Assembly (NCBI GenBank): GCA_013298075.1
Contig: JAAFJG010000002.1
Span: 25,648 to 89,647, forward strand
Origin: Cytophagales bacterium
GTDB lineage: Bacteria > Bacteroidota > Bacteroidia > Cytophagales > Microscillaceae
Length of the DNA: 64,000 nucleotides
Direction of reading: 5' to 3'
Positions 3,901 to 33,436 of the stretch are shown here, one piece after another (within the stretch, counting starts at the first letter, position 1; every line of letters starts with the position of its first letter). The notes under the pieces were generated by a model. It ran no database searches and was not told the origin of the DNA. It worked only from the letters and a program-made list of their open reading frames with translations. Made by a program: the position numbers and the translations under genes.

Positions 3901-4776
3901 TTATTTTTGAATACGTAATTCTTGTATTTGTTCAATACTTAAATTCGTATATTTTGCTATTTTTTCATTGGTTTCATTGTCTGTAATCATATTTTTTGCG
4001 ATTTGAACTTGTGCTTCTTTTTTCGCTCTATCAATTTCAAATTTCATTTCGTGTTCTTTCGTATATTTCACACTCATTTCAATTCTATGATTTTCGATAG
4101 AACGTTTATAAGTTAGTTTATCTTCGTCAGATAATTCTTCATAAAGCAATTTTTCTTTCACTTTATCCAAACCTTTTGCATTAAATCCATCTTTGATTTC
4201 ATTATTTTTTAAAAAATAAATCCATTCATCAAGCGTATTTTGAGCCACTTTATTAAAATTATTCACTTTTAACACATAATATTTTGGAAAAATATCAGAT
4301 ATTTTTTCTATGTGGAAAGTATTTTGTTGAAAATATGAAGGCAACAAAACATCATGTTCATGCAAACCAATGAACTCGCCTTTGTATTCGTATATATAAT
4401 CTAAACCTTGTCCTAAGCCAAAATAGACAATATTTATAGAATATACTTTTTTTATCGTTTCATACTTTTCGCCTTCTTTGATATATTCAGTTACTAATTT
4501 TGAAACTCCATAAATCATACGTTGAAAATAATCGACCTCAGATTCATTTTGAATTTCGACTAACATCAATTCGTTACTATTCGATTTCACCAAAATATCG
4601 ACTCGATTATATTTATCATATTCATCTTGTTTATTGCCTTCACTTTCTAAAATGTTTTCTATTTTTACATCAAAATGAAGTAATTCAGATAAAAAACCTT
4701 CCAAAATATCAAAGTTAGCTTTGTGACGAAGTAATTTTTTCATTGCCCAATCAAAGCGTATCAATCTTTTAGCCAT
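3901..4776 (-). CDS. Rpn-family PD-(D/E)XK nuclease / transposase-like protein
   Basis: 291 residues, full length for the family. The catalytic core is visible as Asp60 (NRVDILV) and Glu74-x-Gln76 (LVEIQNE). The C-terminal tail after ~245 contains the short helix-turn pattern NEKIAKYTNLSIEQIQELR, which is shared with the Rpn proteins at 32.4-33.4 kb. That tail is the part that in other Rpn genes is made separately as a small inhibitor. The family has DNA nuclease activity and roles in recombination and phage defence. Transcribed alone, towards the metzincin gene. Confidence 0.9.
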   Translation of the reverse strand: MAKRLIRFDWAMKKLLRHKANFDILEGFLSELLHFDVKIENILESEGNKQDEYDKYNRVDILVKSNSNELMLVEIQNESEVDYFQRMIYGVSKLVTEYIKEGEKYETIKKVYSINIVYFGLGQGLDYIYEYKGEFIGLHEHDVLLPSYFQQNTFHIEKISDIFPKYYVLKVNNFNKVAQNTLDEWIYFLKNNEIKDGFNAKGLDKVKEKLLYEELSDEDKLTYKRSIENHRIEMSVKYTKEHEMKFEIDRAKKEAQVQIAKNMITDNETNEKIAKYTNLSIEQIQELRIQK

Positions 4777-25190: not shown

Positions 25191-27656
25191 TTAAAAAAAT
25201 CCATAGTTTTTAATTTGTGGCAATAATTTATTTTTGAGAATAGAATGTAAAATTTTCAATTCATTCATTTCATTTTCACCAATATTTACATCAGTCATAG
25301 CATTTCTAATTTGCCACCAACCAGCATCAAAACTATGAATTTTAAATTTTGGAGTACGCATTTGTGATAAATTAGCAAAAAATAATTGATAAATTTCTTT
25401 TGCTTTTGTTAAAATATCTTGACTTTCTTTGGATAAATATTGTTTTTTTTGTGATAACCATTCGAACATAAACGTATTTTTAGCGGTCATTAAAGAGTTA
25501 AAAATATCAGAATCAGTAATTTTCCAATGTTTTATTTCTTCTATATCAAAAGGAAAAAAGTGATTTTTAATTTGATATATTTGATTTTTATACGTAATAT
25601 CTCTCAAAGAAGCCGTTGCATTTGACGTGCTAAATAAATTCCAAACAGCACAATCGACCATAAATTCTTCGCTCAAAATTTGGTTTGGTTGCATAAATTG
25701 GTCTCTATCATTCAACCAAGTTGCTTTCGGAATACGCCTAACTGCGTGAATAACCATTGCTTTTTCAAAATTTTCAGGCGTAACAGACAATGCACCCGCA
25801 CTCACAGACGGACCTGAAAGAAATGCAGTTTGATTTTGGCATTGAAAATTATTGCCCGCACACATCAAAGATGCTAAAAAATTCTTCGAAATTCTATCTC
25901 GCACATCTTTATTTTCTGCTTTGATTGTGATTGCATTGCTGAAAGGAGGGAAAGTATCAACGGCTGAAGGTCTTTTTATCCATTTTGTTAGAAATTTCTT
26001 TTTATTTTCTGTATTGATATTTTTACTATCTATTTTTTGACCCTCTAAATCAAATACATCAAGTATAATATTTTGATTTTCGATAGTATTTTCTTCTAAT
26101 AAATTCCACAATAAAAAGCCAACAGGAAATGAATTATTTTTAGAAGTTCCCGAAAAATTAGCCGAAGAAAAAACAAAACCATTTTCAAATTGGAACTTAA
26201 AAAATTTCTCTCTCAATTTTTCATCATTGTTTGCATTAAGATATTTTATTTTTGAAAAAAGTCCTAAATGTGCTATTTTATCTTTAAATTCATATTTAAT
26301 TCTATATAAAAATTGTGAAAATAATTCTCTCGAAACCTCTCCTAAATCCTCTCTGTGCATTATTTTTCTTATTTTTGTATCGCTTACACCCGCTTTACTA
26401 TGCGTATTTGCTCCTGCGGTTTGGCTCGTAGCAAAAGGTGGATTGATTAAAATTATCCATTTCAAATCTTTGTTTGCCAAATCATTTTTTAATTTTTTTG
26501 GTAATTTCCAATCATATTCGTAATGAATTGTACCATTGGCAAAAATATTTTCTATGTCATCATTCAAATAATCGTATTGAAAAATAGTTGCTTCTGAAAA
26601 CAATTTTTGGCAATGCTCTACATCTTCCATATATAAGGTAGATAAATAGCAATGCTTTAACGATTTTTGTGGGAGATAATACTCTAAATTTCCTGTTCCC
26701 GCTGCCATATCCCAAAGTCTATATTTTCCAGTTTCCCACCAATTTTTACCAACTATTTTTTCAATATATTCCAAACCTTTTTTAGCAAATGAAATAGGAG
26801 TAAAAAATTCGCCGTGAAAACGCCTCATTACATCATCACTTAATCTATCAATTTTGGCTAAAATAGCACGAATAATCGTTGGATTTTTTACTTTTTCATA
26901 TAAGCCCCAAAAATGTTCATAATCTCTTTGCAATATTTTTTTTATTTTGGCATCGCCATTGCTAAATTGAAAAATAACTTTACTTTCATCTTTCATATAA
27001 ATAGTACTTCCTTCCTGAATATCACAGACAAAATAACGGCTTGTTTTTAAACCATTTCTTACTGCATCGCCAAAAATATTATTCCAATATTCAAAAACAT
27101 CTTCAAAATTTAATTCATTGATAATCTTTTTTTCAATGAAATTTAAGTTTGCTTGACTATCTAAATAAGTAGAAAGTAAATTTGAAAAAATATTATATTC
27201 ACTTTGAATAAGTAAATTAAAAACGTGATTATTGATAAGTTTTTTATCATTTGCAAGGTCTTTTACTAAATTCTGGTCGGGATTACTGGGTGCTAAATCC
27301 CAATCATATTTACTTGTATCGTTATAATAATCTCTCCAAGTAGCCGTTTCGAATAAAATTGCTTCGTCTTCATCAGCCAAACACAAAGCAGGCGGAATAG
27401 ATTTATCGATATATTTTCCAAAACGCAAACGCCTTACATAATAAAGAATTTGTGCCAAAACAGCGGCACGTACTTTTATATTAGATAATTTTTTATCATA
27501 TTTGAACTCAAACAAAACTTGTGGCGTATAAAGGTCGTGCTTGTCCGAAGTATTATACTGAATAGCAAAACATTTAGCAAAAACAGATTTTACTTCTTCC
27601 TCTGTTTTTACTTTTTGCATATTTTTTGAAAATTGACTAAAATCACATCTAAGCAT
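25191..27656 (-). CDS. Type IIG-like restriction-modification enzyme (nuclease - N6-adenine methyltransferase - specificity region)
   Basis: 821 residues. N-terminal PD-(D/E)XK-type nuclease candidate: Asp41, then Glu50-x-Lys52 in LFEFKYDK, with Gln69 in the following helix. Helical connector to ~275. Methyltransferase domain: motif X-like GEFFTPISFA (282), motif I DMAAGTGN (316-323), motif IV NPPF (405-408). The C-terminal ~380 residues should hold target recognition. This order matches single-chain type IIG enzymes that cut and methylate; N6-adenine product follows from NPPF. It stands in tandem with a second, nuclease-less copy downstream and a relic of a third copy upstream. BREX PglX-like methyltransferases are an alternative, but no other BREX gene is present. 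Confidence 0.85.
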   Translation of the reverse strand: MLRCDFSQFSKNMQKVKTEEEVKSVFAKCFAIQYNTSDKHDLYTPQVLFEFKYDKKLSNIKVRAAVLAQILYYVRRLRFGKYIDKSIPPALCLADEDEAILFETATWRDYYNDTSKYDWDLAPSNPDQNLVKDLANDKKLINNHVFNLLIQSEYNIFSNLLSTYLDSQANLNFIEKKIINELNFEDVFEYWNNIFGDAVRNGLKTSRYFVCDIQEGSTIYMKDESKVIFQFSNGDAKIKKILQRDYEHFWGLYEKVKNPTIIRAILAKIDRLSDDVMRRFHGEFFTPISFAKKGLEYIEKIVGKNWWETGKYRLWDMAAGTGNLEYYLPQKSLKHCYLSTLYMEDVEHCQKLFSEATIFQYDYLNDDIENIFANGTIHYEYDWKLPKKLKNDLANKDLKWIILINPPFATSQTAGANTHSKAGVSDTKIRKIMHREDLGEVSRELFSQFLYRIKYEFKDKIAHLGLFSKIKYLNANNDEKLREKFFKFQFENGFVFSSANFSGTSKNNSFPVGFLLWNLLEENTIENQNIILDVFDLEGQKIDSKNINTENKKKFLTKWIKRPSAVDTFPPFSNAITIKAENKDVRDRISKNFLASLMCAGNNFQCQNQTAFLSGPSVSAGALSVTPENFEKAMVIHAVRRIPKATWLNDRDQFMQPNQILSEEFMVDCAVWNLFSTSNATASLRDITYKNQIYQIKNHFFPFDIEEIKHWKITDSDIFNSLMTAKNTFMFEWLSQKKQYLSKESQDILTKAKEIYQLFFANLSQMRTPKFKIHSFDAGWWQIRNAMTDVNIGENEMNELKILHSILKNKLLPQIKNYGFF

Positions 27657-32301: not shown

Positions 32302-32345
32302 GAAAATAACTCAAACATTTTTTTTGTTTGAGTTATTTTTTTGTA
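32302..32345 (+). terminator. Terminator of acyl-CoA ligase gene
   Basis: AAATAACTCAAACA and TGTTTGAGTTATTTTT form a 14-bp stem around a T-rich loop, followed by a T run. The -7 box of the next gene (TATCTTTG, 32344-32351) starts right behind it. Confidence 0.88.
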
Positions 32346-32351
32346 TCTTTG
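32344..32351 (+). promoter_or_regulatory. -7 box TATCTTTG of the Rpn gene
   Basis: TATCTTTG matches TAnnTTTG, 26 bp before the Rpn ATG. TTTG at 32323-32326 could serve as the -33 element with a 17-base spacer, placing it inside the terminator stem of the previous gene. Confidence 0.6.
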
Positions 32352-32377
32352 CAGAAAGAAATTAATTCAAAAGAACT

Positions 32378-33214
32378 ATGAAATTCGCTGATATAAAAAA
32401 TGATATTGCTTTTCGCAAAATATTTGGCAATGAAACTAAAACAGAAATTTTAATTTCGTTTTTAAATGCTGTGTTAAAATTAGAAGACGATAAACAAATC
32501 GATTTGATAGAAATTTTAAATCCATATCAATTACCAAGAATGGCTGGTTCAAAATCTACTATTTTAGATGTACGAGCAAGAGATAAAGCAGGTAATTCTT
32601 ACATTGTCGAAATGCAAGTTACGGACAAAATAGGACTCGATAAGCGCATTGTTTATTATAGTGCAAGAGGTTATGCTTCTCAATTAGACGCAGGCGAAAA
32701 TTATTATAAATTAAAACCTATTATTTTTATTGGTATTTTAGATTTTGAATATTTAGAAAGTCCAAACTATTTATCAAGGCATTTGATTTTAGATTCAGAA
32801 ACTAAAGAACACAAATTAAAGGATTTAGAATTTTCTTTTATAGAATTGCCAAAATTTAATAAAACCGAACAAGAATTAAAAAATCTGGTGGAAAAATGGA
32901 TTTTCTTTATCAAAAACGCAGAAAATTTACAAATAATTCCCAAAAATTTAGATGATAAAGGTCTCGAAATTGCTTACCAACAAGCAGACCGCCATACTTG
33001 GACAAGAGAAGAATTAGAAGAGTATGAATATGCATTGATGCGTGAAACCGATGAAATAGCAAGAGAATTGTTTGTGGAGGAAACTGCAAAATATAAAGAA
33101 AAAATTGAAATTGCTAAAAATGCAATTTTAGAAGGTGCAGAAGATAAATTTATTGCTAAAATAACAAGTTTAACCATCAAACAAATCGAGCAGATTCGCA
33201 ACGACATAAAATAA
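32378..33214 (+). CDS. Rpn-family PD-(D/E)XK nuclease / transposase-like protein
   Basis: 278 residues, full length. The N-terminal pattern is KNDIAFRKIFGNETKTEILISFLNAVL-like; the catalytic set is Asp64 (ILDVRARD) and Glu78-x-Gln80 (YIVEMQV). The C-terminal ~65 residues (from EYEYALMRETDEIA to TIKQIEQIRNDIK) are nearly the same as the separate 66-residue protein encoded 22 bp downstream. An in-frame ATG at 33038 inside this tail could also give an internal product of ~58 residues. The family nucleases are toxic DNA endonucleases with anti-phage activity in E. coli. Confidence 0.92.
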   Translation: MKFADIKNDIAFRKIFGNETKTEILISFLNAVLKLEDDKQIDLIEILNPYQLPRMAGSKSTILDVRARDKAGNSYIVEMQVTDKIGLDKRIVYYSARGYASQLDAGENYYKLKPIIFIGILDFEYLESPNYLSRHLILDSETKEHKLKDLEFSFIELPKFNKTEQELKNLVEKWIFFIKNAENLQIIPKNLDDKGLEIAYQQADRHTWTREELEEYEYALMRETDEIARELFVEETAKYKEKIEIAKNAILEGAEDKFIAKITSLTIKQIEQIRNDIK

Positions 33215-33235
33215 AAAATTTAACTCAAGAAAACT

Positions 33236-33436
33236 ATGAAATTAGAAGATTATGCTCTTATGCGTGAAAAGGACAAAATAGCAAGGGAATTGTTTGTGGA
33301 GGAACAAGGAGCAATGCGTAAACAAATTGAAATTGCTAAAAGTTTATTAGAAACATCGTTATCAAATGAGGAAATTGCAAAATATACAAACTTAACTATC
33401 AAACAAATCAAACAGATTCGCAACGAAGTAAAATAA
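33236..33436 (+). CDS. Stand-alone Rpn C-terminal tail protein (66 aa), candidate inhibitor
   Basis: The ORF opens with its own ATG 22 bp after the Rpn stop. Over all 66 residues it aligns with the tail of the preceding gene: DYALMREKDKIARELFVEE here against EYALMRETDEIARELFVEE there, and NLTIKQIKQIRNEVK against SLTIKQIEQIRNDIK. It has no nuclease residues. In E. coli, Rpn genes make a short C-terminal protein from an internal start that binds and blocks the full nuclease. A separately encoded tail in the same operon would do the same job; that is inference. Alternatively it is a decayed second Rpn copy, but start, frame and stop are clean. Confidence 0.8.
   Translation: MKLEDYALMREKDKIARELFVEEQGAMRKQIEIAKSLLETSLSNEEIAKYTNLTIKQIKQIRNEVK

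Follow-up and report, generated by a model that had tools for sequence, protein, structure and literature searches.

A tail-only gene behind an Rpn nuclease gene in a Cytophagales bacterium: possible orphan of a deleted tandem copy

The 64,000-nucleotide stretch of DNA analysed here, called the window, belongs to a Cytophagales-like Bacteroidota genome (assembly GCA_013298075.1, here G000; 4.7 Mb in 153 contigs) and covers positions 25,648 to 89,647 of the forward strand of contig JAAFJG010000002.1. It contains a gene for a nuclease of the Rpn family and, directly behind it, an open reading frame (ORF) of 66 amino acids that resembles the C-terminal tail of that nuclease. Our reading, which we hold with belief and doubt in about equal measure, is that this small ORF is an orphan RpnS-like tail left over from a deleted second Rpn copy, and not the antidote of the adjacent nuclease. 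In E. coli, RpnS is a tail made from an internal start, which binds and blocks its own RpnL (Zhong et al. 2023, PMC10327210), and an earlier note on the window had proposed that the tail was duplicated here into a second gene as a cognate antidote. Such a duplication does not agree with what is found, since the small ORF carries the start and leader of a whole second Rpn copy, the body of which appears to have been deleted. The features concerned are the following.

32362-32385, + strand: leader and start of the nuclease gene (TTAATTCAAAAGAACTATGAAATT), 21 of 24 nucleotides identical to 33220-33243, with A at -3 and -6
32378-33214, + strand: Rpn nuclease, 278 amino acids (ORF call and family models)
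33026-33211, + strand: C-terminal tail of the nuclease, residues 217-278, with predicted helices at 210-251, 256-263 and 267-277 (alignment and structure prediction)
33083-33169, + strand: variable tail core of the nuclease, including KIEIAKNAILEGAEDKFIAKITSL (33101-33172) (sequence comparison)
33220-33243, + strand: small-ORF leader and start (TTAACTCAAGAAAACTATGAAATT), a homologue of the nuclease gene start, with the putative deletion joint in AATT at about 33240-33243
33236-33436, + strand: tail-only ORF of 66 amino acids (putative orphan RpnS-like protein), with predicted helices at 3-38, 44-51 and 55-65 (ORF, alignment, AlphaFold2, Foldseek)
33305-33391, + strand: variable tail core of the small ORF, including QIEIAKSLLETSLSNEEIAKYTNL (33323-33394), of a type unlike the nuclease core

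Results

A tail without a nuclease domain

The upstream gene is, by its matches to family models, a member of the Rpn family (PDDEXK_2/TIGR01784, COG5464): it scores 175.7 bits against PF12784 (E 1.6e-51, cut-off 27.4) and 144 bits against TIGR01784 (E 7.6e-42, cut-off 52.1), the family-model match spanning residues 7-273 and the PDDEXK_2 domain residues 7-226. The small ORF starts after a gap of 21 bp behind the nuclease stop codon. Its alignment with nuclease residues 217-278 is ungapped, 36/62 residues being identical (58%) and 49/62 similar (E 2e-20); taken alone, the small ORF matches the last 39 positions of TIGR01784 (235-273), and the nuclease residues are absent. The earlier note was therefore right in describing it as the nuclease tail from end to end, with its own start and stop, and judged from these alignments it is an Rpn C-terminal tail lacking the nuclease domain. 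Modelling by AlphaFold2 with 44 aligned tails gave the three helices listed above (pLDDT 82), and Foldseek superposed the model on RpnA-S (PDB 7TH0) with an rmsd of 1.9 Å over 44 residues and a TM score of 0.77 by target, so that the product is predicted to fold as an RpnS-like helical dimerisation tail.

Two other structural leads were abandoned. DNA binding by the tail was considered in view of weak TrpR-like matches; since RpnS has been reported to resemble helix-turn-helix motifs, these matches add nothing specific. For the full-length nuclease, AlphaFold gave a poor model except in the tail (pLDDT 48.7), and this model was set aside.

Origin from a second Rpn copy

Exact matches to the leader and start pattern shared by TTAATTCAAAAGAACTATGAAATT and TTAACTCAAGAAAACTATGAAATT are found at these two sites only in the whole 4.7-Mb genome; two further places, both unrelated, appear when three mismatches are allowed, and a scan of the whole window revealed no third site scoring 19/24. 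Tandem Rpn arrays exist elsewhere in the same genome, their copies being spaced by similarly short A-rich leaders, which in the array on contig C5 end in ACTATGAAATT. This array consists of two complete copies and a third one cut at the contig end, that on C104 of two copies and a fragment, and that on C143 of three copies; the beginning of the small-ORF tail and the second C5 copy share 86% identity over 94 bp. Because the leader and start match is unique, and because tandem arrays with short leaders occur, the small ORF is most simply seen as a second tandem copy minus its body, and its derivation from such a copy by removal of codons ~3 to 214 is strongly supported by these comparisons. The joint between ATGAAATT and AGAAGATTATG falls in an AATT common to the gene start (ATGAAATTC) and to the start of the nuclease tail (GAATTAGAAGA), and therefore the simplest course would be an in-frame deletion between these short repeats, by which the second member of a tandem pair would have lost its nuclease body. 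The deletion is clean: start, frame and stop are all preserved. The earlier note had named the eroding end of a full second Rpn gene as a finding that would refute it; a second copy deprived of its body is indeed what the small ORF seems to be, but a clean deletion of this kind is not erosion. That a collapsed assembly had produced the small ORF could be ruled out, because the two leaders and tails have diverged (74% over 200 bp).

A second mini-Rpn was noticed in the same genome (L065:3170-3559, on G000:C1), in which an ATG start is followed by the C-terminal 118 residues of an Rpn close by; its tail core is again a different one.

With a deletion origin this clear, the small ORF could be an inert remnant of the second copy, devoid of function and with a frame open by chance. 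Rpn fragments, truncated or broken, abound in the genome and in its relatives, and a frame free of stops is not improbable if the sequences had mostly diverged before the deletion (P 0.14-0.35). However, the deletion is in frame, the start, stop and start context are intact, and 56/186 nucleotides are unlike those of the neighbour, yet no stop has arisen (P 0.04, assuming every change on the small-ORF branch). Moreover, substitutions concentrate in the core, as they do in intact Rpn genes, instead of being evenly spread (Fisher p 0.01), and tail-only ORFs recur. We consider this explanation rather unlikely.

Mismatch of the tail cores

The divergence between the two tails of the window is far from uniform: at the DNA level the first 19 codons are 84% identical, the central 29 codons (87 nt) 52%, and the last 15 codons 89%. 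The core shows 20 replacement and 1 silent codon changes, as against 6 and 5 in the flanks, and 10/24 of its residues are identical in the small ORF and the adjacent nuclease; despite equal helix length, the variable region of the small ORF is not that of its neighbour. The small-ORF core (QIEIAKSLLETSLSNEEIAKYTNL) agrees at 19-20/24 residues with Rpn tails from other genera, and at 14/24 at best with the other Rpn tails examined from its own genome.

Cores also vary between complete Rpn genes. Copies 1 and 2 of the C5 array are the same in protein body and in their last residues, and their cores share 12/24 residues; in 8/10 adjacent full-length pairs with bodies ~99-100% identical, the cores agree at merely 8-14/24. 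In the reverse situation, three pairs with bodies 28-32% identical have core DNA 88-90% identical; one of the three is the window nuclease and the Rpn in L118, whose bodies are 32% identical and which show 90% core DNA identity. Body identity and core identity show no correlation across 124 full-length Rpn proteins (rho 0.02; the pairs are not independent). Tandem arrays at six loci (L061, L062, L063, L095, L096 and L122) combine bodies ~99-100% identical with differing cores, the abrupt drop in DNA identity being confined to the core.

Expression of the small ORF

Two further features bear on expression.

32344-32351, + strand: Bacteroidota -7 promoter element TATCTTTG (consensus per PMC6847099)
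33038-33040, + strand: in-frame internal ATG with weak start context, poorly conserved (start context and relatives)

The TANNTTTG box occurs a single time on the + strand between 32344 and 33436, at 32344. In Flavobacterium johnsoniae, initiation is helped by adenine at -3 and -6 (PMC6847099); both adenines are present ahead of the nuclease and of the small ORF, and both are absent ahead of the internal ATG, whose methionine is kept in 54 of ~101 relatives. The ATG pointed out in the earlier note does exist, but its use as an internal start finds no support here. No strong structure was predicted over the small-ORF start. That this ORF is translated is plausible because the start context is good, a single promoter is present and the start is free of strong structure; it is probably translated from the same messenger RNA as the nuclease.

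These features also fit a cognate antitoxin, i.e. a two-gene toxin-antitoxin operon whose second product, the separate tail, would inhibit the upstream nuclease by binding to it. The bicistronic order with its short gap, the one promoter and the good start context are as such an operon would have them, helix length is equal and residue identity reaches 58%; E. coli RpnS does block its own RpnL, and separate rpnS genes are known, one of which, ypaA, is made into protein (PMC10327210). On the other hand, the core, which is the part that differs between tandem copies, is identical at 10/24 residues, none of the comparable Bacteroidota and E. coli pairs is matched, and a mismatch of a single repeat ended inhibition in RpnC (PMC10327210). 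Given the published tail specificity and the core mismatch, a cognate pair is disfavoured and appears to us improbable. Of the two-cistron toxin-antitoxin layout suggested previously, the separate RpnS-like tail cistron, with its single promoter and good start, is upheld; the cognate pairing is not.

Other separate tails in Bacteroidota and E. coli

Separate downstream tails recur in Bacteroidota and in E. coli, and no pair read was matched. In Bacteroidota, tail-only ORFs lie directly 3′ of a full Rpn gene on G000:C13 (two in a row), C132, C2, C86 and C127, on G022:C7 and G078:C9, and on the Saprospiraceae contig L161. All of the ~10 such ORFs examined, a set in which some may be without a proper start, differ from the tail of the neighbouring nuclease in register or core; in most cases the first helix is longer or shorter by 4, 8 or 16 residues, and sometimes the core differs too. 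Many apparent lone tails in relatives, located at contig ends inside near-identical Rpn copies, had been discarded. The locus on C13 (L220, G000:C13:52000-61000) consists of a full Rpn gene and two tail-only ORFs, with the same 20-nt spacer and one 4-residue repeat apart.

In E. coli, the rpnE-ypaA locus was read in eight strains, representing six distinct haplotypes (L254-L262, L081). The number of 4-residue repeats in RpnE and YpaA is unequal in 6/6 haplotypes read. In both strains read that have no ypaA, the end of RpnE is of the YpaA type, as would be expected if the two tails had recombined; an RpnE-YpaA fusion is also mentioned in PMC10327210.

Such fusions raise the possibility that the small ORF is mainly a recombination donor, a silent cassette whose matching flanks let the tail core of the nuclease be swapped, toxin and intragenic antitoxin changing together. 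The alternation of flank, core and flank identity in the window, which has its like in tandem arrays, the cores common to unrelated bodies and the YpaA end of RpnE in the two strains without ypaA are all in its favour. But the matching flanks of the two window tails extend over a mere 57 and 45 nt, a switch at this locus was found in no strain pair, and the good translation start suggests a role at the protein level. As the main role of the small ORF, that of a silent donor seems unlikely.

Discussion

We come back to the orphan tail as our preferred reading. According to it, the small ORF, which retains the leader, start codon and stop of the full gene, would be translated off the nuclease messenger RNA, as promoter and start context suggest, into an RpnS-like helical dimerisation tail, the fold being predicted. 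With its differing core type, the small protein would most likely not neutralise the adjacent nuclease; it may instead pair with and block Rpns of its own core type, be it the former partner or incoming Rpn genes, and the ORF could in addition supply sequence for tail exchange in the gene upstream. Several points weigh against this reading. The length of helix 1 is equal in both proteins, their alignment being ungapped, so that some cross-binding is possible, and the first 19 and last 15 tail codons are well conserved between nuclease and small ORF. The published specificity concerns the number of 4-residue repeats and RpnA versus RpnB, not the core sequence (PMC10327210). As to selection on the small ORF, the ratio of replacement to silent changes in the flanks is 6:5, and the probability of finding no stop under neutrality ranges from 0.04 to 0.35 with the share of changes assigned to its branch. 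The Foldseek match to 7TH0 has an E value of 1.4, which is insignificant, as is normal for a protein so short. Finally, the neighbourhood differs in two same-genus genomes, from which the ancestral state of the exact locus is untraceable.

A full Rpn gene with a separate tail gene downstream is an arrangement already known from E. coli: rpnE-ypaA (rpnES) and rpnC-rpnCS are separate downstream rpnS genes (PMC10327210). The same work showed that blocking by RpnS is specific, as between RpnA and RpnB, and that one added 4-residue repeat abolishes inhibition of RpnC unless it is carried by both partners. The window pair resembles these loci in that a full Rpn gene is succeeded on the same strand by a tail-only ORF of 60-80 amino acids (the spacing is 12 bp in K-12) and, as regards the rpnE-ypaA haplotypes read, in that the separate tail is mismatched to that of its neighbour. 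It differs in that the E. coli mismatch lies in the 4-residue repeat number, with cores of the same type, whereas in the window pair the helices are equally long and the cores differ in type; furthermore, ypaA begins at the internal methionine of the tail, whereas the leader and opening codons of the small ORF are those of a second full gene. Intragenic RpnS (RpnA-S, PDB 7TH0) shares with the small ORF the three-helix tail fold, predicted for the latter, and the C-terminal position in an Rpn nuclease. However, being made inside its own rpn gene it is always cognate, whereas the small ORF stands as a gene of its own and has a different core.

A more distant likeness may be seen in the cdiA and rhs genes, whose C-termini are exchanged modularly between otherwise alike genes. 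Orphan toxin-immunity modules located 3′ of these genes (e.g. PMC3150448) may be compared with the small ORF as displaced C-terminal modules, each following a complete gene whose own C-terminus is different. The analogy involves no homology: in the cdiA and rhs genes the variable C-terminus is the toxin and has a separate immunity gene, whereas in Rpn it is the dimerisation and antitoxin part.

In the main text of PMC10327210, the one paper on RpnS found in the literature searched, we saw no statement that separate copies mismatch the adjacent genes, and none that cores are exchanged among bodies. Our comparisons lead to a broader proposal, which we put forward tentatively and regard as possible, with doubt somewhat outweighing belief: Rpn proteins may be modular, the specificity-setting tail core recombining between unrelated bodies, and tail-only genes may be systematically non-cognate, serving as orphan antidotes and/or donor cassettes for tolerating or adopting foreign specificities. 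One core swap would alter toxin and antitoxin together, because both are encoded by the same DNA stretch. Separate rpnS genes have so far been described as a second antitoxin copy. If they are regularly non-cognate, as all the pairs read suggest, their role would rather be protection against other Rpn alleles or the storage of alternative tails, which would help to account for the fast tail variation between copies with identical nuclease bodies. Rpn is a widespread phage-defence family and, were the proposal true, comparing rescue by cognate and by orphan tails would be a simple test of what drives tail diversity.

Gene setting

The Rpn pair is flanked by an AMP-binding ligase gene and an AAA ATPase gene on the other strand. 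In one same-genus genome (G002) an unrelated gene lies behind the ligase instead of Rpn, and in another (G001) no Rpn was found behind the ligase as far as the contig runs, the contig ending there; because of these two ligase neighbourhoods without Rpn, the pair at the ligase would represent a local insertion or loss. The genome as a whole matches the window Rpn protein at 45 places, the tandem arrays on C5, C104 and C143 included, which on the count of these matches is a large Rpn expansion. The window itself holds a second Rpn gene, a 300-codon frame at 3913-4761 (- strand), and at its left edge (26-244, - strand) an N-terminal Rpn piece, whose C-terminal counterpart lies outside the window in a separate frame (G000:C66:24912-25607); the two frames probably represent one frameshifted copy.
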